Assembly: GCA_903933765.1 (NCBI GenBank)
Contig: CAIZLI010000075.1
Location: forward strand, 1 to 10,863
DNA length: 10,863 nt
Source: an uncultured Bacteroidota bacterium
GTDB taxonomy: Bacteria > Bacteroidota > Bacteroidia > Chitinophagales > Chitinophagaceae
Reading direction: 5' to 3'
The first letter of the stretch is position 1; each line of letters opens with the position of its first letter. Made by a program: the position numbers and the translations under genes. The notes below the pieces were generated by a model. That model ran no database searches and was not told the DNA's origin. It saw only the letters and a list, made by a program, of their open reading frames with translations. This document shows, in pieces, positions 2 to 10,270 of this stretch.

Positions 2-310
2 AGCAAAAAGAATAATTTTAAAGCAATTCATGAAACTCACTTCTAATTCAAATAACTTGATTCCTATAAAAAGAACCATTGCGGTAACACTGTATTTTAT
101 AGTATTAACAACTGGCAATAGTATATATGTCAGCCATTCATTTTTTTTATTGAGATTAATAAGCTCTTCAATTCTTTTAATGGACAAAATATTTTCAAGT
201 GATACAAAATAAAATGTTTCTGTGATAATGATATTGTTAGCTACCCATGATATTGCTATATAAAAAAGTGAAATTAAAATAACACATAAGAATGATTTTA
301 TATTTATCAT
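2..310 (-). CDS. Partial multi-pass membrane protein, unknown function
   Basis: An open frame runs from ATG at 310 leftward to the window edge without a stop: 103 codons visible, C-terminus missing. I translated it by hand on the minus strand. Hydrophobic segments lie at about residues 6-24 and 59-83, and a third begins near 95. A polar, lysine- and glutamate-containing loop (about 36-58) separates the first two. No motif names a family. It starts 17 bases after the stop of the 68-residue membrane protein, so the two are probably co-transcribed, downstream of the bacteriocin-like peptides. GC is very low (about 22% in sampled lines), as in its neighbour and unlike the core genes to the right. 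Inferred roles are immunity or accessory membrane protein of the peptide system. The gene is fairly certain; the role is a guess. Confidence 0.6.
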   Translation of the reverse strand, partial: MINIKSFLCVILISLFYIAISWVANNIIITETFYFVSLENILSIKRIEELINLNKKNEWLTYILLPVVNTIKYSVTAMVLFIGIKLFELEVSFMNCFKIILFA

Positions 311-327
311 AATAATTAAGGAAAGAT

Positions 328-534
328 TTATTTGTTTTGATTAATTATTTTCAGCTCTTTATAAAAACATATAACAAAAAATAAAAAAGATAAAAACCAA
401 GTACATGCAATAAATAGTAAAATGATTCTTTTTGTTAAATTTTCTTTAGGAACTTGTACTAATTTATCAATTGTCATAAAAAACAAAGACAATTGAAACA
501 AACCAGCTATAGTATGTGAAATTAAATTTTTCAT
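328..534 (-). CDS. Small two-helix membrane protein, candidate immunity protein
   Basis: 68 residues from ATG at 534. Hydrophobic segments at about residues 5-22 and 37-58 predict a helical hairpin in the inner membrane, with a basic/polar connecting loop (KLVQVPKENLTKR) and a lysine-rich tail. There is no signal cleavage site and no conserved motif I recognise. It follows the two glycine-zipper peptides on the same strand, separated from them by a perfect inverted repeat. Its own start lies 21 bases after that hairpin. Small membrane proteins downstream of bacteriocin structural genes are often immunity proteins, so that is the preferred inference; homology is not shown. GC is extremely low (about 17% over 361-420). 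Confidence 0.6.
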   Translation of the reverse strand: MKNLISHTIAGLFQLSLFFMTIDKLVQVPKENLTKRIILLFIACTWFLSFLFFVICFYKELKIINQNK

Positions 535-555
535 AATGTATATATTTATGTATTT

Positions 556-598
556 AATAATAGAAAGTTGTAAAAATTATTTACAACTTTCTATTATT
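556..598 (-). terminator. Perfect 19-bp inverted repeat between peptide genes and immunity candidate
   Basis: Positions 556-574 are exactly complementary to 580-598, with a 5-base loop (aatta). The stem is AT-rich. It begins 8 bases beyond the stop codon at 606 of the second peptide gene and ends 21 bases before the start of the 68-residue membrane protein. No clean U-tract follows on the minus strand, so it could be a partial terminator or a 3'-end stabiliser of the peptide mRNA as well as a full terminator. The pairing is seen directly; the function is inferred. Confidence 0.6.
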
Positions 599-605
599 TT
601 AGAAG

Positions 606-824
606 TTAGTCAAAGCAACCACCTACGGCAGCACCTGCTACTGCACCAACAATTGCTCCAATTGCAGTTCCCCATCCAATTCCAAATGGGGTCCAAGTTC
701 TTACACCGAGTTTAAACCCTATGGATGCACCTCCTACTAGACCGGACAAAGCACCTCCGAGACAACTTGCATCTGCTCTGCCGCCATTAAATTCTATCAT
801 ATGTTCTTTTGAAATCTTTTTCAT
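606..824 (-). CDS. Double-glycine-leader glycine-zipper peptide B (class IIb bacteriocin-like)
   Basis: 72 residues from ATG at 824. Residues 1-15 (MKKISKEHMIEFNGG) look like a double-glycine leader of the sort cut by C39 peptidase domains of ABC exporters. The predicted mature peptide of 57 residues begins RADASC. It has repeated GxxxG/AxxxG spacing (GGALSGLVGGASIGF, GTAIGAIVGAVAGAAVGG) typical of glycine zippers that pack membrane helices. Cysteines are at 21 and 70 only, close to both ends of the mature part. The upstream peptide gene on the same strand ends 18 bases before this start, and its product shares leader length, cysteine placement and zipper pattern, so I infer a paralogous two-peptide pair. 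An A-rich leader lies upstream and there is no Shine-Dalgarno site. Killing activity and processing are inferred; a peptide signal is the alternative. Confidence 0.75.
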   Translation of the reverse strand: MKKISKEHMIEFNGGRADASCLGGALSGLVGGASIGFKLGVRTWTPFGIGWGTAIGAIVGAVAGAAVGGCFD

Positions 825-842
825 ATTTTTTTTTTAGAAAAT

Positions 843-1064
843 TTAATTCATACAATGTGATGATGATAATCCTGCACCTACTCCACCTAGATATAATCCA
901 AATGCCATTCCAAGTGCAGTCCCATATCCTGGGAAAAATGCAGTTCCTATTGCAAAACCAGCTTCAGCCCCTCCAATCATTCCTCCTGCGACAGTATATG
1001 CACATTTCCAAAAATTACCACCACCTTCAACTAATTCCATTTGATTTAATGTTATTGTTTTCAT
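843..1064 (-). CDS. Double-glycine-leader glycine-zipper peptide A (class IIb bacteriocin-like)
   Basis: 73 residues from ATG at 1064. The frame stays open to a GTG at 1100, but the ATG is preferred: it opens directly on the leader and is preceded by an A-rich Bacteroidota-style leader. Residues 1-15 (MKTITLNQMELVEGG) fit the double-glycine leader pattern, with the hydrophobic and acidic spacing L..MELVEGG. The mature part (about 58 residues, starting GNFWKC) is hydrophobic with dense glycine-zipper spacing (GGMIGGAEAGFAIGT, GMAFGLYLGGVGAG). Its only two cysteines are at 21 and 71. It aligns with peptide B through GGA..GF..G, a central proline, and GT..G...G...G. This is the first gene of the presumed peptide operon. 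No strong TAnnTTTG promoter was seen close upstream. Confidence 0.75.
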   Translation of the reverse strand: MKTITLNQMELVEGGGNFWKCAYTVAGGMIGGAEAGFAIGTAFFPGYGTALGMAFGLYLGGVGAGLSSSHCMN

Positions 1065-1100
1065 TTTGTTTATTTTAATTTTTCTTACCCCAATAACCAC

Positions 1101-1272
1101 TGTGGAGTAAATTCAGCGGATTTTTTCACTTTCTTCTCTGAAAGGTTCCATGTTCGCATTTACATACTCGGCTGTTGACAAGTCCCGAAGTAGTATCGAT
1201 CTCTACCAACGTCCAATTATTTAACCGCGGCCGCAATCAGGGGAATTGAAAAACCCTTTTGGTACCAAATCC
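1101..1272. other. Non-coding stretch with locally raised GC and palindromes
   Basis: It separates the peptide operon from the 69-residue lipoprotein gene; both are read leftward. GC is about 43-45% over 1141-1260, against about 20% in the membrane protein genes just left. It holds an 8-bp palindrome gcggccgc (1227-1234) and a perfect 12-bp palindrome tttggtaccaaa (1258-1269) ending 3 bases from the lipoprotein stop codon. On the minus strand two short frames look protein-like (residues such as LSTAEYVNANMEPFREESEK and LNNWTLVEIDTTSGLVNSR), but each is closed by stops within 40 codons. It may be a decayed gene, the end of a mobile element, or a 5' untranslated leader for the peptide operon. 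Confidence 0.4.
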
Positions 1273-1482
1273 TTATTTAAGTAGGTAATCATATCTAAAA
1301 TCACCTGTTAGCTGTGCTTGATTGCTGGTGTCATTAATAGGAGTTAGGTCTTTATGTGACTTCAAACCCTTTAATTGATCAATAATTATATCCTTTCCAT
1401 TCAATGTAATATTGCCTTTTAAAGTACATGCACTAAAAGCAACAATCATCAATAAAACTAGACTCAATTTCAATTTTTTCAT
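1273..1482 (-). CDS. Small lipoprotein, unknown function
   Basis: 69 residues from ATG at 1482 (a TTG at 1500 would add six residues, but the ATG starts a clean signal peptide). The N-terminus is KKLK followed by a hydrophobic stretch and the lipobox AFSAC, with the lipidated cysteine at residue 19. This predicts SPII cleavage and membrane anchoring. The mature part is only about 50 residues (TLKGNITLNGKDIIIDQLKG at its start) and matches no family I know. Most lipoproteins are much longer, so it may be a stand-alone small lipoprotein, an entry-exclusion or immunity-like factor, or a truncated gene. It is read in the same direction as the peptide genes, 208 bases upstream of peptide A, but no shared transcript is evident. 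Confidence 0.55.
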   Translation of the reverse strand: MKKLKLSLVLLMIVAFSACTLKGNITLNGKDIIIDQLKGLKSHKDLTPINDTSNQAQLTGDFRYDYLLK

Positions 1483-1518
1483 AGCATACTTTTTAATCAA
1501 CGTTTAATTAGAAGAACC

Positions 1519-1553
1519 AACAGGACGACCATGGCTAAATGACACGTCCTGTT
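1519..1553. other. 9-bp stem hairpin upstream of the small lipoprotein gene
   Basis: Positions 1519-1527 (aacaggacg) pair exactly with 1545-1553 (cgtcctgtt) around a 17-base loop. On the plus strand it runs into tttttg, the shape of an intrinsic terminator, but no plus-strand gene lies to its left that would need one. On the minus strand it would sit 36-71 bases before the lipoprotein ATG, as a leader hairpin. Confidence 0.45.
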
Positions 1554-1866
1554 TTTGTTCCTCTTCACTTTGGGGACAATTCAATAAAACTAAAAAACAA
1601 CCCATCTATATACTAATAACAATACAACAATAGTTAGCACATTTAAAACCAACTAAGTATGCTTGTACTCCTAAGTGAATTTTTAAAAAAACTTTTTAAA
1701 ATGAAAATTATTACACTAGAAAAAACGACAAATCACATCCATTTCATTTCATAATTAATATTAGAATTAATTTTTGAAATAAAATCAAATGCAAAAATTT
1801 ATTAAAATAGTTTAACGGAGTAAATTCGTAGAGAAATTTCGAATCTACAATACTTGTAAATAAAGG

Positions 1867-1884
1867 CTTACAGAAGATTGTAAG
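1867..1884 (-). terminator. Possible terminator hairpin after the DUF983 gene
   Basis: A 6-bp perfect stem (cttaca / tgtaag) with a 6-base loop lies 42 bases beyond the DUF983 stop on the minus strand. It is followed there by the T-rich cctttattt. The stem is short and low in GC, so this is a weak call. Confidence 0.3.
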
Positions 1885-1925
1885 TTTTAGAAAAAAGGCA
1901 ATAAAATTTAGAGTAAATACTAAAT

Positions 1926-2369
1926 TTAAATTTCTTTCATATGCTCGTCCATGCGCTCATTGTATTCCAATGGCTCATTTTTCCAATTCTTGTTATAAGA
2001 AACAAACCAGCCTAGCCAAATAGAACGAGATAGGCGCATTAAAATAGGTTGTATCAAAATCAATAAAAATATTGTGGTACCTAACCAGTAAAACATTCTG
2101 TTATCATCTAGTTCCCATGTCATACCAATTAATACTTTCCATGCAACAAACATAGAAACAAAATAGGCTACAGTCAATGCATAGCTTACATATCCAGTCC
2201 CATAATAAAAGCCTACTTCAATTTCAGTTGGCTGTCCACATACTGGACAGTGATCATTCATTTTTGTGATATTGGATAAATCGTAGGGATTGGAACTAGT
2301 GAACAGTTTACCTTCTCTACATCTTGGACACTTATTGGTGATTGTGCTGTACAGGTAGCTATTTTTCAT
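1926..2369 (-). CDS. DUF983 family membrane protein with zinc-ribbon-like N-terminus
   Basis: 147 residues from ATG at 2369. Two CxxC pairs, CPRC (14-17) and CPVC (41-44), followed by GFYYGTGYVSYA (53-64), match the DUF983 pattern as I know it. Two hydrophobic segments follow at about 59-83 and 93-111, then a basic and acidic tail ending HMKEI. The four cysteines could bind zinc; this is inference from the motif. The family function is unknown, although such proteins are widespread in Bacteroidota and Alphaproteobacteria. The gene follows murF by 19 bases on the same strand but has its own well-formed promoter overlapping the end of murF. The -7 box is only 4 bases from the ATG, so the transcript would be leaderless or nearly so. 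Confidence 0.85.
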   Translation of the reverse strand: MKNSYLYSTITNKCPRCREGKLFTSSNPYDLSNITKMNDHCPVCGQPTEIEVGFYYGTGYVSYALTVAYFVSMFVAWKVLIGMTWELDDNRMFYWLGTTIFLLILIQPILMRLSRSIWLGWFVSYNKNWKNEPLEYNERMDEHMKEI

Positions 2370-2373
2370 GTCG

Positions 2374-2403
2374 CAAAGATACCGAAAATTAAGGAGCTAT
2401 CAA
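2374..2403 (-). promoter_or_regulatory. Bacteroidota sigma-type promoter for the DUF983 gene
   Basis: On the minus strand, TTG (2401-2403) is followed after 19 bases by TATCTTTG (2374-2381), an exact match to the Bacteroidota TAnnTTTG -7 box at normal spacing. The -33 part lies inside the last codons of murF. The start codon follows the -7 box by 4 bases, which implies a leaderless or near-leaderless mRNA. Confidence 0.6.
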
Positions 2404-3687
2404 TTGCTCCATCTGTATGCCTCTAGAACCCTTTATAAGTAGGGTATAGCCTTTCAATTGTTGTGCAACTAACCAGGCTTTAGCTTCAACCACTGTATCA
2501 AAAAATAGATAGGAATGCGCACATGGCTTAAACTCCGATCCTACAAGTATGACTTGCTCCCAATTGCTTTGTTTCAATTGATCAATCAACGCTTGATGTT
2601 CCATTAATGTATCAACGCCTAATTCTCGCATCCCGCCCAAACAAACCATTTTATTGTCCTTATTTATTTTAGCAAAATTCTCTACTGCTAATTTCATGCT
2701 CGAAGGATTGGCATTGTAAGCATCTAAAATGACTTCGTTGTTATTCCAGGTCAATAATTGTGAACGACTATTGGTTGGGACATAATCTTCAATGGCTGAC
2801 TTTATTTTTTCATTAGGTACTTTAAAGTATTGACCAATTGTAACAGCCGCTAATACATTGGGTAGATTAAAATTGCCCACTAAATGTGTTTGGATGGATG
2901 CTATATCAATACCTTTTTTAAATTGGACAGACAACATACCATTTTGATCTATCGCTTCTCCTTGAATTTGTCCTTGTTCTTTTCCATATGCAATGACATC
3001 TTGAATGCCTTGCGCCATTTCTACTAAGTAGTCAAAATCTTCCATCAAAAACACGGTGCCATTATTAGCTCTTAAAAAATCAAACAGTTCTCCTTTTCCT
3101 TTTTTCACACCTTCCACGCCGCCAAATCCTTCTAAATGTGCTTTACCACAATTGGTGATCATACCATGTGTGGGCAGGGTATAGGCACAATAACTTTCGA
3201 TTTCTTTTTGGTGATTCGCGCCCATTTCAATCACTGCTATTTCAGCATCTTTAGGGATGCTTAATAAAGTCAATGGCACACCAATATGGTTGTTTAAATT
3301 TCCTTGTGTGGTAAATGTTTTAAAATGGCTTGCTAACACAGCATAGACCAGTTCTTTCGTCGTTGTTTTTCCATTGCTACCAGTGATCGCAATGAATGGG
3401 ATATTGAATTGTTGACGATGGTATTTTGCTAAAGCTTGTAGGGTAGTTAATACATCTTCTACAAAAATAATTTGGTCTTGATATGCGCTACTTTCAGCAA
3501 TTTCCTCATCTACAATAGCAAAAGCAGCTCCAGCTTCCAATGCAGCCAATGCAAAAAGATTGCCATTGAAATTAGGGCCTTTTAATGCAAAGTATAAATC
3601 ACCTGCTTTTAACTTTCTGGTATCTGTTACGACAGATGGATGTGTGGTGTAAATGGAATATAATGCCTCGATTGATCCAAGCTTCAT
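2389..3687 (-). CDS. murF: UDP-N-acetylmuramoyl-tripeptide--D-alanyl-D-alanine ligase
   Basis: 432 residues. MurF joins D-Ala-D-Ala to UDP-MurNAc-tripeptide with ATP in the cytoplasm, the last soluble step of peptidoglycan precursor synthesis. Seen in order: N-terminal TDTRK (21-25) for the UDP-substrate domain, the ATP-binding loop GSNGKTT (103-109), GNLNNHIGVP (129-138), EMGANHQKEI (154-163), GNFNLPNVLAA near 271-281, and DAYNANPSSM (322-331) of the C-terminal domain. The length is normal for the family. I chose ATG at 3687: the frame extends to 3723, but only to a TTG that would overlap ispF by 25 bases, whereas the ATG leaves an 11-base gap and opens with a family-like MKLGSIEALYSIY. It is third in the gldJ-ispF-murF operon. 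Confidence 0.95.
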   Translation of the reverse strand: MKLGSIEALYSIYTTHPSVVTDTRKLKAGDLYFALKGPNFNGNLFALAALEAGAAFAIVDEEIAESSAYQDQIIFVEDVLTTLQALAKYHRQQFNIPFIAITGSNGKTTTKELVYAVLASHFKTFTTQGNLNNHIGVPLTLLSIPKDAEIAVIEMGANHQKEIESYCAYTLPTHGMITNCGKAHLEGFGGVEGVKKGKGELFDFLRANNGTVFLMEDFDYLVEMAQGIQDVIAYGKEQGQIQGEAIDQNGMLSVQFKKGIDIASIQTHLVGNFNLPNVLAAVTIGQYFKVPNEKIKSAIEDYVPTNSRSQLLTWNNNEVILDAYNANPSSMKLAVENFAKINKDNKMVCLGGMRELGVDTLMEHQALIDQLKQSNWEQVILVGSEFKPCAHSYLFFDTVVEAKAWLVAQQLKGYTLLIKGSRGIQMEQLIAP

Positions 3688-3698
3688 AGCAATTGAGT

Positions 3699-4181
3699 TT
3701 AGCTTTTTGCCATCAATAAACAAGTAGCAGTTGCTACAAGCCCTTCTTCTCTACCTGTAAAGCCCATCGTTTCTGTAGTCGTTGCTTTGATAGAAATATC
3801 CTTATTACCAATATGTAAAATGGAAGCGATACATTCCTGCATTGCAATTACATAAGGCTTAATTTTTGGTGCTTCTAAACAAAGTGTGGCGTCTATATTG
3901 ACAATTTGATAGCCTTCTGCAGTGATTAAATCGTAAGTTCTTTGCAATAAAATTTTACTATCAATATTCTTAAATGAATTGTCAGTGTCAGGAAAATGTG
4001 TGCCAATATCGCCTAAACTTAAAGCACCTAATAGCGCATCGCAAATTGCGTGAAGTAATACATCTGCATCGCTATGTCCTAAAGCGCCTTTGTGGTGTGG
4101 GATAAGAATGCCGCCAATCCATAAATCTCTACCCTCTACCAATTGATGAAAATCGATGCCTGAACCTATGCGTAAATTCAT
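3699..4181 (-). CDS. ispF: 2-C-methyl-D-erythritol 2,4-cyclodiphosphate synthase
   Basis: 160 residues, the usual length. IspF converts CDP-ME 2-phosphate to ME-2,4-cyclodiphosphate with loss of CMP, step five of the MEP isoprenoid pathway; the family is a homotrimer with a divalent metal. The metal ligands are visible: D10 and H12 in SGIDFH, and H44 in the segment GHSDADVLLHAICDALLGA. The GDIGTHFPDTD loop (58-68) and the C-terminal block TTTETMGFTGREEG (134-147), with the conserved threonine/glutamate of the active site, are also present. Its ATG shares a single base with the gldJ stop (TAATG), which suggests translational coupling. murF follows 11 bases later. Confidence 0.96.
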   Translation of the reverse strand: MNLRIGSGIDFHQLVEGRDLWIGGILIPHHKGALGHSDADVLLHAICDALLGALSLGDIGTHFPDTDNSFKNIDSKILLQRTYDLITAEGYQIVNIDATLCLEAPKIKPYVIAMQECIASILHIGNKDISIKATTTETMGFTGREEGLVATATCLLMAKS

Positions 4182-5545
4182 TAAAAGATATTTTTAAATT
4201 TCTGCCATAAATTAGGCTGCTCTTCTTTGGCATCTGGCGTATCCATTCCAAAAGCAGAAATCGCACATCTAAAACCAATTGTATTGGTAGCTTTATCTTG
4301 ATCTAAATACCTTCTTGTTCCAGGGTTCAACCAATATGGACGGTCTTTCCAGCTTCCTCCTTTATATACTCTAGATTTATTGGAGATCATTGTATTTGTT
4401 CCTGTCTCATAACTAGAAGTGTTGGTATCATCACCATCCAACACATTATTGCCTCTGTATGGATTAAAATCATCCATGTCGATGCTATTCATTGGGCGAT
4501 AGATATCCGCAACCCATTCATTGACATTACCACTTAAATTATATAAGCCCAATGGATTTTGTAAAAAACTATTGATTTTACTTGGAAAACCAGCACCATC
4601 ATTTGAATAGCCTACCATGCCCATATAGTCGCCACTTCCATTTTTAAAATTGGCCATGAACATCCCGCGTTTGCTTCCTTCCTTTTTATCAATCTTTCCT
4701 GTTGGGTTGTTTCTTAGGCCATCATTCCCATTTGAGCTCCAAGGATAAGGCGAATTAGATGTGATGATACTCGCATTGGGCGTGCCTGAGTTAGGTCCAG
4801 CTTTTGGATTATTGAAATTCGAAATATAGTTCTTGCCACTAGATACTTTTGCTGCATATTCCCATTCCGCTTCTGTAGGTAATCTAAAATCAGGAATTAA
4901 TACATAATCTCCCAAGTTTTTGTTCTTCACTTTTGAAGTAGGCGTGAATGTAGTCGTTTTTTTATTGCTATCAACCAGACTATTACTGGCTTCCATCTTC
5001 CCTAAATAGGGTTTAGTTGGATCAATTAAACCATATTTGATTAATGTTTTCTCATTGGCTCTATCCGTTCTCCACCTGCAATAAGCATTGGCTTGTTCCC
5101 AACTTACACCAATCACAGGATAATCATCAAATGCTTTATTTCTAAAATAACCCTCCACCATTGGTTCATTGTAAGCAAGATCGGTCCTCCAAACTAATGT
5201 GTCTGGAAGTGCCGCTTTCACAATTGAATCTTTCCCTAATGGTAAAAATACACGTTCAAGCCATTTTACATAATTTCTGTATTGTTTATTACTAACCTCA
5301 TATTGGTCAATTCTAAAAGAACTCACAGTGACTCTACGCAAATTATTGTTCCAATCACCCATGATATTTTCCTGGTTCATGCCCATGGCAAATGTGCCAC
5401 CTCTAATTAAAATAGTGCTATCATAGGGGTCATCTTTGTCGGCAAATGCAACTTGATTGCTTTGTTTGCTATCGAATTCAGAGATCATTTTAGGGCCTAA
5501 AAAAAGTACCGCAAAAAATAATAATATGCTATTGATAAAATTCAT
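4181..5545 (-). CDS. gldJ: GldJ-like SUMF1/FGE-fold protein of the gliding and type IX secretion machinery
   Basis: 454 residues. Sulfatase-modifying-factor fold motifs in order: IRGGTFAMG (47-55), IDQYEVSNKQYRNYV (79-93), YPVIGVSWEQANAYC (142-156), RLPTEAEWEYAA (221-232), GLYNLSGNVNEWV (333-345), KGGSW (395-399), GFRC (424-427). The segments GDWNNNLRR (63-71) and LPDTLVWRTDLAYNE (113-127) point to GldJ and not its relative GldK. In Flavobacterium johnsoniae GldJ is a lipoprotein needed for gliding and for stability of the T9SS, and gldJ lies next to porU and porV, as here. The oddity is that the hydrophobic N-terminus (SILLFFAVLFLG) has no cysteine; the first cysteine is C156, and an in-frame stop 12 bases upstream rules out a longer start. 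So it is not a conventional lipoprotein and may be held by an uncleaved anchor. It is the first gene of the operon with ispF and murF. Confidence 0.88.
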   Translation of the reverse strand: MNFINSILLFFAVLFLGPKMISEFDSKQSNQVAFADKDDPYDSTILIRGGTFAMGMNQENIMGDWNNNLRRVTVSSFRIDQYEVSNKQYRNYVKWLERVFLPLGKDSIVKAALPDTLVWRTDLAYNEPMVEGYFRNKAFDDYPVIGVSWEQANAYCRWRTDRANEKTLIKYGLIDPTKPYLGKMEASNSLVDSNKKTTTFTPTSKVKNKNLGDYVLIPDFRLPTEAEWEYAAKVSSGKNYISNFNNPKAGPNSGTPNASIITSNSPYPWSSNGNDGLRNNPTGKIDKKEGSKRGMFMANFKNGSGDYMGMVGYSNDGAGFPSKINSFLQNPLGLYNLSGNVNEWVADIYRPMNSIDMDDFNPYRGNNVLDGDDTNTSSYETGTNTMISNKSRVYKGGSWKDRPYWLNPGTRRYLDQDKATNTIGFRCAISAFGMDTPDAKEEQPNLWQKFKNIF

Positions 5546-5581
5546 CTGTTTTGTTTAATCAGTGCTGTTTAAAATCTTCTG

Positions 5582-5615
5582 CGAATATACTTGCTTTTTC
5601 ACTCAATTATTCAAA
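5582..5615 (-). promoter_or_regulatory. Candidate promoter for the gldJ-ispF-murF operon
   Basis: On the minus strand, TTTG (5612-5615) is followed after 22 bases by TATATTCG (5582-5589), one mismatch from TAnnTTTG. This would leave a leader of about 30 bases before the gldJ ATG. It lies in the 112-bp divergent region shared with porU. The spacing is at the long end, so confidence is low. Confidence 0.35.
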
Positions 5616-5641
5616 TGCAAATAGATTCTTATGTTAGTAAA

Positions 5642-5657
5642 ACCCTAATTTTAGGGT
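5642..5657 (+). promoter_or_regulatory. Palindrome abutting the porU start codon
   Basis: accctaa (5642-5648) pairs exactly with ttagggt (5651-5657) around two bases, and the ATG follows at 5658 with no gap. As RNA it would be a tight hairpin over the ribosome landing site; as DNA it could be an operator. No Shine-Dalgarno at normal spacing is present. Confidence 0.4.
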
Positions 5658-8600
5658 ATGAGACTTCTGGTTTTAACATTTTTTTTAATTGGATGCTGCT
5701 TTCCTGTTTTGGGATGGGGACAGGTAGGCATGCTTTCGAAAGGAAATTGGGTTAAAATAGCTGTGCCAAACGAGGGGGTGTATCAGTTGACTGGTGCACA
5801 ATTTAAAGCGATGGGATTTGCAAGTAAACCAAATGCCAATCAAGTGCAATTATATGGAATGGATTTGGCGAAACTGATCGAAAAAGTGCCAAATGCATTG
5901 CCAGATAGTTTAACAGAAATGGCTATTGAAATGCAAGATGGGGGAGATGGAATTTTTGACGACCAAGATAAATTTTTATTCTATGCGCAAGGACATTATA
6001 AATGGGTCAAGTCAGCTTTGGATGAAGCGCCCATTCGTCAAAAAATCACCAGCAATGATTCTTTGTATTTTTTTCTACGTATTGGAACAAATGGAAAAAG
6101 AATTAACAGTGTAAACAAGACAGGCGCTGCTTCAAAAAAAGTACAAACCTATGCAGCCAAGTGGTTGATCGAAAAAGATACAATCAATATTTTAAGTAGT
6201 GGTAAAATTTGGTTAGGGGATCCTATGGGGACTGGTCTTGGCAAAAAAACAACACAGTCCTTCCCACTTAATATGGAAGGCTTGCAGTTCAATGCACCGA
6301 TCATTTTTCAGAGCCAATTGGCTGCTTCGGCTTATCTAAAAAACGCTTCATTTGTAATAAAGTTGAATGATCAAATATTGGGTACTAAAATAGTAGATTC
6401 TGTTACTGGAAATATTTTTGAGGATGCCTATAAAATACTATTTGATAGTAGTACCATTTGGTTAGATAAAACTAAGGTGCAGAAAGCAGGACAAAGCTTA
6501 AACAACATTAACCTTCAGGTCGATTTTAATGCAACAACTGGCTCAACGGGTTGGATTGATTATATGGTATTGCATGGACAAAGAACAATTGGGTATTGGG
6601 GCAATACAGGATTTGGATTTGACTATCAAACTACAAAACCAATGGATCAATTGGTTGAATTTGAAATTCAAAATGCAACCACTCAAACCAGGGTATGGGA
6701 TTTGAGCCAATACTTTCAGCCTGTAGCATTGCCTACACAAATGGGTCAAAATGTAAATGCTACATTTAAAGTTGAGGATGCTGCACAAAAATATTTCTAT
6801 GCCTTTGAAGCCAATAAAATTAATTCAGCACAGCTTTCTAGTGTGCTCCTCAATGACAGTAGTTTCTCTGCAAGCCCGGTAGATTATATCATTATTTCGG
6901 CACCAGATTTTCTTCCTGCGGCAAAGGCCTTACAATCTTTTCATGAAAAACAAAATGGATACAAAGTGGGTTTGTTCAATGCGACCCATGTATACAATGA
7001 AATGGCAAGTGGACAAACCTCACCTATAGCCATTCGAAATTTTATAAAATACATCATTGAACAATCCAAGTTAAAAAAACAACTTAGCCCTGCGTATATT
7101 TTATTATTTGGGATGGGCAATTTCAATCCACAAAAAATTCAAATCAATAAAGAATTGCCAGTATACACTAGTGAGGTGTCCAATGCGATTTTAACTTCCT
7201 ATAGTTCCGATGATTTTTACGCAATACAACAACCAGGCAATCAAATTCAGTTCACACAGTCGATTGATTCTATTCATTTGGCTATTGGCAGGATTCCGGC
7301 AAGAACCATTGCCGAAGCCAATAAAATGGTGGAGAAATTAATTCAATACCAGTCCAATAAAAAAATGGGACTTTGGCAGAATCAATTGACTTGGGTTGCA
7401 GATGATGCGGACTTTAATTTACACCTTCAGGATGCAGAGGAAATCATAAGCAATTTGAAAACAAAAACAGCTAATTGGAATCATAAAAAATTGTATTTAG
7501 ATTTATTTAAAGCGAGTCAAACATTGACTGGCAATACCTATCCAGATGTCAACAAAGCAATACAAGAGTCGATACAAGCGGGCACATTGGTCTTGAATTA
7601 TACAGGTCATGGAAATTATTTGCGTTTAACAGAAGAGGCTGTGATTTCTAAATCAGAAATGCAGTCCTGGAATAATACTGGAAAATTACCTATTATGGTG
7701 ACAGCCTCTTGTGATTTTGCACCTTATGACCAACCTGGCTCTGCGCCTATTGGTTTTGATGCTTTGATGCAAAATGACAAAGGCATTATTGCATTGGTTG
7801 CGGCCAACCGACTTGTGTTTGCATATAGCAATAAACAAATCAATGATGCATTCATGCAAGCATTATTGTTGCCCAATTCAAATGGCCAATTTAAGACCAT
7901 CGGGCAAGCTTTACAAGCAGCAAAAAATTATAATTTTAACAGAAATGGGGATCGCTTAAATGCATTCAAGTTTGGCTTAATGGGGGATCCAGCCATGCGC
8001 ATCGTGCAGCCAAAATATCAAATTAATTGCACGGAGTTGAATGAAACACCTTGGACGGACACCTTAAATTTAAAAGCTGGAGGAAAGTATACGATAAAAG
8101 GTAATTTGTCAGCAAAAAATCAAATCCTTCAAAATTTCAAAGGCGTTCTAGAAATGGTTTTATGGGATGCGCCAACTACAAAAAAAACCTTAGCGAATCA
8201 AGTGAATAGTCAATCTGTTTCCATCGAAACACAGGAACAGCCGCTATTTAAAGGGAAAGCAACAGTGCAAAATGGACAATTTGAAATCAGTTTCATCCTA
8301 CCCGGTAACCTGCCTTCTTCCAATTTGGCAGCACTAAAATTACAACTCTATGCATACAATGATACTGCAGATGCGAGTATGCAATTTCAATCCATCTTCA
8401 TACAAGGTACTACCACTCAAAATAATCAAGATACCATTGGTCCAATCATCAAGACTTATGTGAACGATACGTCTTTCAAATCTGGAGATTGGGTGAGCAC
8501 ACCTTCTACTTTATTTGTGCGTTTAAAAGATAGTTCTGGAATTCAGTCTTCGGGCAACGAATTGGGACATGATTTAAAATTAATCATCGATGATTCCGTA

Positions 8601-9083
8601 GTAAAAAATTACAACCTGAATGCTTTTTTCACTTACAATGAGAATCAATATCAGTCGGGTGAAATTCAATATCCTTTACCTGTTTTGGAAGCTGGTAAAC
8701 ATCAACTCATCCTCAAAGCCTGGGACTTGTTAGGCAATGTTTCCAAAGACACTATTTTGATAGAAGTGCCAAGTAAAAAAAATAGGAATATTCGCAATTT
8801 AAGTATTAGTCCAAATCCTGTGCAGACCAATGCCAAGTTTAGTTTTGAGCTCAATAATAGTGTAGACCCAATATTGGTACAATTAGAGGTATTTGATGCC
8901 AGTGGGAGAAGACATTTTTCTACAAGTCAACAAATACAACCTAAGGGCAATAAAATTGTCATGGATTGGGGTGGCCATACCAGTAATGGAGGCCTTTTAC
9001 CACCTGGAAAATATTATTTCAAAGTCATTGTTCAGCAAAATGGTTTAATAGAACAAATGTTAAATGGATTTTTAAAATTTTAA
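5658..9083 (+). CDS. porU: Type IX secretion system C-terminal signal peptidase/sortase
   Basis: 1141 residues, close to the roughly 1150 of Porphyromonas PorU. PorU is a surface cysteine protease of the gingipain (C25) family that removes the C-terminal sorting signal of T9SS cargo and links the cargo to a surface anchor. A signal peptide ends around 13-21. The peptidase domain spans about 408-782: DYIIISAP, LLFGMGNFNP, SDDFY (517-521), IGRIPAR (543-549), catalytic His651 in NYTGHGNY, catalytic Cys685 in MVTASCDFAPYD, and MGDPAMRI (775-782). The His-Cys spacing of 34 fits gingipains. A C-terminal beta domain from about 1048 (LSISPNPVQTNAKFSF) ending GFLKF is a T9SS-type sorting domain, which PorU itself is known to keep. 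The signal also reads as a lipobox (LIGC, Cys13). It is divergent from gldJ and porV follows after 53 bases. Confidence 0.93.
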   Translation: MRLLVLTFFLIGCCFPVLGWGQVGMLSKGNWVKIAVPNEGVYQLTGAQFKAMGFASKPNANQVQLYGMDLAKLIEKVPNALPDSLTEMAIEMQDGGDGIFDDQDKFLFYAQGHYKWVKSALDEAPIRQKITSNDSLYFFLRIGTNGKRINSVNKTGAASKKVQTYAAKWLIEKDTINILSSGKIWLGDPMGTGLGKKTTQSFPLNMEGLQFNAPIIFQSQLAASAYLKNASFVIKLNDQILGTKIVDSVTGNIFEDAYKILFDSSTIWLDKTKVQKAGQSLNNINLQVDFNATTGSTGWIDYMVLHGQRTIGYWGNTGFGFDYQTTKPMDQLVEFEIQNATTQTRVWDLSQYFQPVALPTQMGQNVNATFKVEDAAQKYFYAFEANKINSAQLSSVLLNDSSFSASPVDYIIISAPDFLPAAKALQSFHEKQNGYKVGLFNATHVYNEMASGQTSPIAIRNFIKYIIEQSKLKKQLSPAYILLFGMGNFNPQKIQINKELPVYTSEVSNAILTSYSSDDFYAIQQPGNQIQFTQSIDSIHLAIGRIPARTIAEANKMVEKLIQYQSNKKMGLWQNQLTWVADDADFNLHLQDAEEIISNLKTKTANWNHKKLYLDLFKASQTLTGNTYPDVNKAIQESIQAGTLVLNYTGHGNYLRLTEEAVISKSEMQSWNNTGKLPIMVTASCDFAPYDQPGSAPIGFDALMQNDKGIIALVAANRLVFAYSNKQINDAFMQALLLPNSNGQFKTIGQALQAAKNYNFNRNGDRLNAFKFGLMGDPAMRIVQPKYQINCTELNETPWTDTLNLKAGGKYTIKGNLSAKNQILQNFKGVLEMVLWDAPTTKKTLANQVNSQSVSIETQEQPLFKGKATVQNGQFEISFILPGNLPSSNLAALKLQLYAYNDTADASMQFQSIFIQGTTTQNNQDTIGPIIKTYVNDTSFKSGDWVSTPSTLFVRLKDSSGIQSSGNELGHDLKLIIDDSVVKNYNLNAFFTYNENQYQSGEIQYPLPVLEAGKHQLILKAWDLLGNVSKDTILIEVPSKKNRNIRNLSISPNPVQTNAKFSFELNNSVDPILVQLEVFDASGRRHFSTSQQIQPKGNKIVMDWGGHTSNGGLLPPGKYYFKVIVQQNGLIEQMLNGFLKF

Positions 9084-9086
9084 ATA

Positions 9087-9117
9087 TTGATTTCTAGGAT
9101 TATCTTTACTAATATTG
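9087..9117 (+). promoter_or_regulatory. Candidate internal promoter for porV
   Basis: TTG (9087-9089) is followed after 20 bases by TAATATTG (9110-9117), one mismatch from the Bacteroidota TAnnTTTG box at ideal spacing. It lies wholly in the porU-porV gap and would give a leader of about 12 bases. porV may thus be made both from here and by read-through from porU, which would suit a higher need for the barrel protein. Confidence 0.45.
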
Positions 9118-9136
9118 AATATTAAAGCATTTAAGT

Positions 9137-10270
9137 ATGATTAAAATTGCCTCTATCAAAACAGCCTTATTTGTAGTTTTATTTTTTGTTGCGAATTCAA
9201 TTTCAGCACAAAGAACACTTAAATTACAAAGTACTGCTGTACCATTTATGATGATATCTCCGGATGCAAGATCTGGTGGTATGGGTAATTTATCTATTGC
9301 CATGTCTCCAGAAGCGAATGATCTTTTTGGCAACACTGCTAAAATTCCATACTTAAAAGATAACCGAGGTTTTTTAATTAATTATACACCCTGGTTAAAA
9401 GACTTAGGATTGAATGATGTGTATTTAGCGAGTGCAGGTTATTATAAAAAATTAAATAGTTTTAGCGGGATCAATAGTTCCTTGCGTTTTTTTAGTTTAG
9501 GTAATATTGATTTCACAGATGAGTCTGGACAATCTACTTTACCTTCTCAAAGGCCTTCTGAATTTAGTTATGATTTTGGTTACAATATTTTATTATCTGA
9601 TGCCTTGAGCATGGGTGTGACATTAAGGTATATCAATTCAAGATTAGTGCAGGGTTCATATGGCACCAATGGCACCAATTTCAAAGCTGGTAATACTTTC
9701 GCAGGAGACATTAGTTTATTCTACAAACAAAACGAAGACTTAGAAGGCTTTCATGCAGGTTTGGTTTTATCAAATTTAGGGGGTAAAGTGAGCTATTCTA
9801 ATGAGTCAAAAAATAAATATTTTATTCCAGCAAATATTGGATTAGGCCTGGCCTATTTAAGTAAATTTGATACAGAGAATTCATTAGAAATGGGTTTGGA
9901 TATCAATCGTTTAATGGTACCTGCTAGTCCAAGTAGTAGTGATGCTCAAGTGGTTGATCAGTATTTTTCTCAATCCGTTGTATCCAGTTGGTTTAATTCT
10001 TTCTCGAATAAATATGGCATGCCTTTATCTGAATCCTTAAAAGTGTCTCTTGGTGCTGAATACAATTATGCAGACCGATTTCATTTGAGGGCTGGCTATT
10101 TTATAGATAATAATAAGAACCTAGGCAGCATGCAATATTTTACAGTGGGCTCTAGCTTCCAATACCAACAGTCTAAATTCAATATTTCCTATTTGGTCCC
10201 TACAGGGGGTGGTATTACAAGAAATCCATTGTCAAATACCTTGCGTTTTGGCTCCATATTTTACTTCTAA
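9137..10270 (+). CDS. porV: Type IX secretion outer-membrane barrel protein PorV (LptO)
   Basis: 377 residues. PorV is a FadL-type outer-membrane beta-barrel that binds the sorting domains of T9SS cargo after translocation and hands them to PorU. Seen: a cleavable signal peptide (1-24, cut after SISA), then the family block near 36-50 (PFMMISPDARSGGMG), and a long run of alternating polar and hydrophobic strands with many aromatic and glycine turns (YNYADRFHLRAGYF, FNISYLVPTGGG). The chain ends LRFGSIFYF with a terminal phenylalanine, the usual signal for outer-membrane barrel assembly. Length and ending match the PorV family. ATG at 9137 is the only sensible start. It is placed after porU as in other Bacteroidota. 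Confidence 0.93.
   Translation: MIKIASIKTALFVVLFFVANSISAQRTLKLQSTAVPFMMISPDARSGGMGNLSIAMSPEANDLFGNTAKIPYLKDNRGFLINYTPWLKDLGLNDVYLASAGYYKKLNSFSGINSSLRFFSLGNIDFTDESGQSTLPSQRPSEFSYDFGYNILLSDALSMGVTLRYINSRLVQGSYGTNGTNFKAGNTFAGDISLFYKQNEDLEGFHAGLVLSNLGGKVSYSNESKNKYFIPANIGLGLAYLSKFDTENSLEMGLDINRLMVPASPSSSDAQVVDQYFSQSVVSSWFNSFSNKYGMPLSESLKVSLGAEYNYADRFHLRAGYFIDNNKNLGSMQYFTVGSSFQYQQSKFNISYLVPTGGGITRNPLSNTLRFGSIFYF

Follow-up and report, generated by a model that had tools for sequence, protein, structure and literature searches.

The 10,863 bases analysed here (the window, which is an entire contig of a source bin of 1.64 Mb in 325 contigs) quite probably contain the first half of an operon for a bacteriocin of the bacteroidetocin type, which encodes two glycine-zipper peptides and is headed by a structured RNA leader. 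The gene anatomy and its conservation, the covarying structure of the leader and the exporter of the relatives were established by sequence comparison. According to the mechanism that we favour, the mRNA would begin with the pseudoknotted leader, which would set translation of the peptides in response to a signal. A C39 ABC exporter would recognise the precursors B and A by their leaders of 15 residues, cut after the leader and move the peptides to the periplasm, and a thioredoxin-like CxxC protein would help to close one disulfide between the end cysteines, giving a stapled helical hairpin. A multi-TM accessory protein (TM2) would assist. Once mature, the pair would insert into membranes of bacteria related to the producer, which would itself be guarded by the two-TM protein of the next gene. 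Such a locus would represent an operon type of Bacteroidota in which the glycine-zipper peptides come as a pair and are probably Cys-stapled, and which also contains a candidate immunity gene and a small bacteroidetocin-like export set.

Two glycine-zipper peptides with double-glycine leaders

The pair of adjacent minus-strand genes described in an earlier note on this DNA was recovered among the ORFs as peptide B (73 aa, 843..1064) and peptide A (72 aa, 606..824). As that note had it, each carries a leader of 15 residues ending in GG (MKTITLNQMELVEGG in B and MKKISKEHMIEFNGG in A), and this is followed by a glycine-zipper core of 57-58 aa with cysteines at core positions 6 and 56 in B and 6 and 55 in A. 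The proposed resemblance between the two also held, as they align end to end and are identical in 32% of 73 columns (E 3e-07, a single comparison), and so did the repeated GxxxG spacing, since the number of such pairs was above that of composition-preserving shuffles both in A (9 vs 3.5, p 0.0004) and in B (8 vs 3.4, p 0.005). Their relatives at locus L009 gave 11 vs 5.2 for A and 8 vs 5.0 (p 0.056) for B. The cysteines near both core ends, the structured leader at 1085-1212 and the flanking genes go beyond what had been described.

A contig scan of genomes with B gave one locus, L009, which belongs to G525, a genome of the same genus. There the orthologues adjoin each other as well (B 67% identical, A 53-54%) and dN is below dS (0.24 / 1.11 for B and 0.47 / 1.76 for A). 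Because these orthologues have dN well below dS and B has 11 further relatives (P0001-P0011), we consider A and B to be real genes and not chance frames. P0001 is a near-identical metagenomic copy of B (95% identity, 12 member sequences), and A alone as query found no homologue at E <= 0.001. The adjacency of the genes, the mutual similarity of their products and their joint conservation in L009 might reflect a two-peptide system in which both are needed for activity.

A leader not conserved in relatives had been named as counting against the bacteriocin reading, and on this point the outcome was mixed: GG is present in 6 of the 12 relatives of B (P0001-P0011 and L009) and absent from the other 6, which include L009, whose genome carries the exporter. 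P0011, another of these 6 and a metagenomic sequence devoid of the leader, has a TM2-like N-terminus (by eye) and the B core as C-terminus, and is either a fusion or an assembly chimera. The cysteines near the start and the end of the core are kept in A and B of L009, and the pair of B is invariant across the 11 rows of its alignment. An AlphaFold model of B (pLDDT 65, low confidence) is a helical hairpin of residues 18-43 and 47-71 with a turn at Pro-Gly, a hint that its cysteine-bearing ends could meet.

The Pfam profile PF10439 (Bacteriocin_IIc) matched B with 33.2 bits, above the cut-off of 27.1; A alone scored 23.1 bits, below this cut-off, and reached 27.1 when the neighbours in frame were included. 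In L009 the same profile gave 12.0 bits for A and no match for B, and TIGR03949 (lactobin A/cerein 7B; NCBIfam cut-off 21.5) gave 13.4 bits for A and no match for B of the window. Because PF10439 had a match in only one of the 147 genomes of the genus (G000), this profile misses the other peptides that were found via the RNA leader. Like the class IIb bacteriocins of these families, A and B have double-glycine leaders and Gly-rich cores and come as a pair; unlike their members, A stays under the Pfam cut-off, both peptides stay under the NCBIfam one and the host is Gram-negative. The Pfam match, together with the conserved operon, the C39 exporter in relatives and the candidate immunity genes, supports that A and B are exported GG-leader bacteriocin-like peptides, which would be cleaved, may contain a disulfide, could be toxic and might act jointly.

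A likeness in form to class IIb bacteriocins and to the Cdz toxins of Caulobacter had been pointed out, but the bacteroidetocin loci match more closely. CdzB is the periplasmic adaptor of the Cdz system. As in the available part of the Cdz description (PMC5380434), two tandem glycine-zipper peptides are followed here by a small membrane gene, there an immunity gene, but that system has CdzA/B type I secretion and surface aggregates of CdzC, whereas a thioredoxin-like/TM2 cassette and Cys-bracketed cores are found here.

Downstream genes and the export cassette

Between A and the next gene there is a 19-bp hairpin (556..598, minus strand; z -8.3 vs shuffles), a candidate attenuator or processing hairpin, and L009 has at the equivalent place a hairpin of 14 bp followed by a U run. 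Such a strong hairpin 3' of A in both loci suggests that the peptides would be made in excess over the immunity and export proteins. The next gene (328..534, minus strand) encodes a candidate immunity protein of 68 aa, for which two TM segments are predicted and which is found in the same place in L009 (42% identity, dN well below dS). It is followed by the TM2 gene, of which the window holds the N-terminal 103 aa (2..310, minus strand) before the gene runs off the contig.

L009 has the short lipoprotein first, followed by B, A and the two-TM protein, and its contig ends soon after TM2 has begun; the flanking genes are other than in the window. Another contig of G525 (C23, locus L027) starts in the C-terminal part of TM2, which directly precedes the genes for a thioredoxin-like protein (membrane-anchored, motif CEHC) and a C39 ABC exporter of 726 aa, and then comes a gene on the opposite strand; the G525 cassette is read over two separate contigs, one ending and the other beginning within TM2. 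The window TM2 is 49% identical over 55 aa to that of L027 and is also matched by the TM2 of L017. TM2 is the break point of the contigs in both genomes (position 1 in the window), and strain variation or a repeat at this point may be the reason.

In the case of G010, a genus mate assembled as a single contig of 3.7 Mb, a peptide with another core, the two-TM protein, TM2, the thioredoxin-like protein and the C39 exporter (61% identity to its G525 counterpart) follow each other unbroken, and its TM2 is a 100% match to record P0013, named Asinibacterium sp. OR53. A TM2 search in 294 genomes of the family gave matches in 7, the source and G010 included. TM2, thioredoxin-like protein and C39 exporter are in line in 4 of the 5 newly found genomes (L035, L037, L038, and L039), and the cassette of the fifth (L036) is without the thioredoxin-like gene. 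One or two GG/GA-leader peptides lie upstream in 4 of these 5 loci; L039 presents TM2, thioredoxin-like protein and C39 only, with no GG/GA peptide seen upstream. Thioredoxin-type Pfam families scored above their cut-offs in 6 of the 10 proteins scanned and below them in L038, L039, L105, and L110.

The complete TM2 proteins have five predicted TM segments in two cases out of three and four in the other, and no PDB entry matched a model of TM2 (mean pLDDT 84) better than with E 5. A widened search gave at least 1137 homologous proteins, the named ones among the matches listed being from Bacteroidota and two of them called Yip1; with so wide a set of homologues, the TM2 family may extend beyond bacteriocin loci. 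TM2 was also considered as the immunity protein and dropped, because it goes with the exporter and not with a given peptide. The gene between peptide and TM2 does vary, being a small two-TM protein in L017, L038, and probably L035 and an ABC-like pair in L037 and L097. This is the pattern expected of immunity, a role that the two-TM protein of the window may well have.

GG leaders are also found on pheromone precursors, and A and B could be exported pheromones that control their own operon instead of toxins. This would agree with the response-regulator-like gene lying divergently upstream at three loci (L035, L037, and L038) and with the conserved-tail short lipoprotein ahead of the leader, but the cores are long (57-58 aa), membrane-like glycine zippers that differ between loci, and the small TM proteins or ABC-type pairs after the peptides are those expected of immunity. 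Known pheromones are short and unlike glycine-zipper cores, and we consider a pheromone function unlikely. The divergent genes (L035:6366-7031, L037:5019-5693, and L038:7495-8133) look like those of response regulators. The lipoprotein-like ORF of the window (1273..1482, minus strand, upstream of the RNA leader) has the conserved C-terminal tail GDxRYDxxL; its L009 relative is 28-29% identical overall, and those at the same site in L096 and L047 are 84% and 51% identical. This lipoprotein, which is ahead of the RNA leader in L009, L096, and L047 as well, might act as a signal or in immunity.

Returning to the bacteriocin reading, the earlier note had held that a genome devoid of a C39 exporter would speak against it. 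The exporter search found none in the source bin, where it gave ABC matches of 23-31% identity only, and the relative G525 has one. With a bin at 77% completeness and a contig that ends one or two genes short of the expected place, we do not take this result as a refutation. The missing exporter would also be compatible with A and B being fossils, the degenerate remnant of a system that has lost it, but A, B and the two-TM gene all have a dN well below dS, and this, the near-identical metagenomic copies and the incompleteness of the bin make such a decay very improbable.

The HlyD-type adaptor that had been expected as well was not seen by eye within a few kb of the exporters of L017, L027, L035, L037, L097, and L102; the exception is L036, with an HlyD-like protein 0.8 kb downstream beside an apparent RND pump. 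An exporter without adaptor would reach the periplasm only, and the ORF lists, with no HlyD gene beside the thioredoxin-type exporters, would suit self-directed peptides that are kept in the cell's own envelope for programmed lysis or envelope modulation. However, the bacteroidetocin cassettes, in the available part of their description, also list no adaptor and yet yield active toxin from E. coli (PMC6671954), and we grant the self-directed role a small chance.

For bacteroidetocins A/B (Coyne et al. 2019), a five-TM protein, a GG peptide, a thiol oxidoreductase and a C39 exporter suffice for toxin in E. coli, according to the same part of that article (PMC6671954). As far as described there, our loci share with them a GG leader of 15-16 aa, the thiol oxidoreductase, the C39 ABC exporter, a Cys-bearing peptide, the Bacteroidota host, a set of four genes with no adaptor and a multi-TM protein, this last likeness being drawn from gene content (PMC6671954). 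Unlike the bacteroidetocin described, one basic 42-aa peptide with four Cys, there are here two cores, glycine zippers of 57-58 aa that carry two Cys each; a candidate immunity gene is present, none having been found for bacteroidetocins in that text, and the multi-TM gene is placed after the peptides with an RNA leader in front (PMC6671954). Because it departs from the 42-aa/four-Cys form, we do not file the window pair as a bacteroidetocin but only as working like one. The four-gene cassette is complete in L017, L035, L037, L038, and, over two contigs, in G525, and the window has the peptides and the start of TM2 only.

A structured RNA leader ahead of the peptides

The leader was first seen as a conserved stretch before peptides of different cores when the upstream regions of the window, L017, and L035 were compared. 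It is about 125 nt long (1085..1212, minus strand; models R1 and R2, covariation on 47 homologues) and its 3' end lies 21 nt ahead of the ATG of B. On the minus strand it comprises the helices P1 (1203-1207/1189-1193), P2 (1185-1188/1168-1171), P3 (1140-1144/1129-1133), P4 (1114-1118/1098-1102) and P5 (about 1104-1110/1085-1091); P5 forms a pseudoknot with P4, and P6 together with P2 makes a second one. A long-range CAGC/GCTG helix considered at first gave way to the P4 of RNAalifold and to P6.

The covariance model R1 was built on four sequences. In the alignment of 47 matches, which is fitted to the model and hence biased towards it, the 19 modelled pairs were paired in 94.0% vs 72.3% when shuffled and 30-42% when slid. 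All 19 change on both sides, with 135 cells vs 29.6 in shuffles, a number reached in 0 of 500 shuffles. Beyond the model, three pairs of P6 reached 83% and the fourth named pair 22%, and six pairs of P5 reached 69%, the inner two being formed in 42/43 and 40/43 sequences and an outer one in 15/44. From a MAFFT alignment of 23 sequences that was not fitted to the model, RNAalifold recovered four pairs each of P3 and P4 only; with the structure named, 83.6% of the cells of this alignment were paired (77.3% when shuffled and 34-48% when slid), and changes on both sides numbered 44 vs 16.5. The window leader alone folded no better than shuffles (z +1.1).

Among four copies of the leader searched against Rfam 15 (window, L017, and two in L035; to E 5, 5 and 2) none reached a gathering score, and the best overlapping match (E 0.073, 15.3 bits vs 180 needed) was taken as chance. 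Judged by titles and abstract openings, none of the papers listed on such RNAs names the element. It resembles the riboswitches and structured leaders of Rfam 15 in being a two-module 5' leader with pseudoknots, conserved unpaired stretches and a narrow spacing to the start codon, and it differs from them in that its copies come nowhere near gathering and its cargo consists of exported-peptide genes. We regard the leader as probably a new cis-regulatory RNA that may regulate the genes behind it. Since the start codon comes 21 nt after the end of the P4/P5 pseudoknot and there is no terminator U run, this control would be exerted at translation.

A second type of leader, unlike the first, stands before GG peptides at L037:6470-6695 and L038:8348-8573. 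In a comparison of these two sequences, the hairpin around AAGTACAA was compensated and CAAGACGAG was invariant, and the L038 copy had no Rfam match near threshold.

Cargo of the leader and exporter types

The leader was searched for with R1, whose E-values are per genome and rough. At E <= 0.1 it was found in 44 of the 147 genomes of the genus, at 60 places, and 38 of the genomes have it at E <= 0.001; in the family it was found in 26 of 394 genomes (17 at E <= 0.001). R2 found it at E <= 0.01 in 12 of 396 genomes of the order, a set that includes family genomes, and all 12 are of the same family. According to loose patterns, with an ORF minimum of 38 aa, the first gene after the 49 copies of at least 32 bits is of GG type in 22, a lipoprotein in 15 and another protein with hydrophobic N-terminus in 8, with no ORF in 4 and no gene of other kinds; the control ORFs of the same loci (n=236) divide into 20, 21, 73 and 122 (other). 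In this survey L066 (B of L009) was counted as GG by a later GG, and two upstream starts were skipped by hand (L056, L057, and L059). The 7 of 56 R1 matches below 32 bits, before other genes in 4 cases and no ORF in 3, were left out as likely chance; two of the genes behind them look to us like trpS. Lipoprotein-like proteins of 250-310 aa are encoded just downstream of the leader in L056, L059, L060, L068, and L073.

The ATG lies 17-25 nt past the element in 32 of 45 copies, and L035 has two copies, each ahead of a peptide gene. Furthermore, 20 neighbourhoods were examined: in 13 of the 17 with GG-type cargo and in none of the 3 others, a gene for a Pfam-C39 exporter starts no more than 3.8 kb downstream, on the same strand; among the 4 misses, L106 offers only 1.75 kb, L108 has a fragment at its edge, and L096 and L107 have none in 9.5 and 7.3 kb. 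The leader could serve as a searchable mark for further exported-peptide genes in the family, mostly missed by the bacteriocin profile, and it raises the question of which signal triggers the making of these peptides; if it were a riboswitch, a metabolite or stress would be linked to bacterial competition. More tentatively, and with slightly less than even confidence, we propose that it represents a new class of cis-regulatory RNA of Chitinophagaceae, possibly a tandem-pseudoknot riboswitch, that sets a shared regulon of exported peptides, made up of GG-leader bacteriocins with small secreted lipoproteins, and is also the fixed upstream half of a cargo-exchange site.

The loci reached through the RNA also revealed a second type of C39 exporter, grouped by similarity to that of L018 (53-82%) and with an HlyD adaptor by Pfam in both loci scanned (L098 and L104). 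Of its 13 peptides, 12 have a leader of 24-27 residues (the other has 38 as annotated), and the peptides of the thioredoxin type have 15 residues in 11 of 15, three having 16-20 and L009 B being mis-cut by the pattern. At least two Cys are present in 14 of 15 peptides of the thioredoxin type vs 1 of 13 of the second type (Fisher p 8e-06, the related sequences not being independent); the window pair was scored as thioredoxin-type on the basis of its relatives, and L112 (a third exporter type) and L036 (without oxidoreductase) were left out. This enrichment ties the oxidoreductase to the Cys pairs, a link likewise proposed for bacteroidetocins in the available part of their description (PMC6671954).

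Finally, we have compared sites that share a flank with the window. Positions 1111-9519 are 84.6% identical in DNA to L096 (G436), and in a global alignment identity drops from 0.88 to 0.47 within the leader, after which L096 encodes a different GG peptide. In L051 (G503) and L047 (G461) the DUF983/MurF flank and the leader are common with the window up to 1072 and 1080, respectively, and the cargo that follows is a lipoprotein of 220 aa in the former and a secreted-like protein of 99 aa in the latter. Except for the A/B pair, BLASTP among the cargos of the four genomes gave no similarity at E 0.1. This comparison covers one flank only, yet a common flank with different cargo and a junction in or just past the element in four genomes is what would be expected if the conserved leader were a DNA recombination site that swaps cargo, and no regulatory RNA. 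However, the compensatory changes in the stems, the 17-25 nt spacing to the ATG and the two copies of L035, each before a peptide, fit a cis-acting RNA, and homologous recombination at any conserved leader would swap cargo too, so that we see little chance that the element is a recombination site alone. The right-hand part of the window contains mostly housekeeping-like genes, plus a peptidase C25 protein (Pfam) that, like the gene next to it, we take to resemble parts of type IX secretion.
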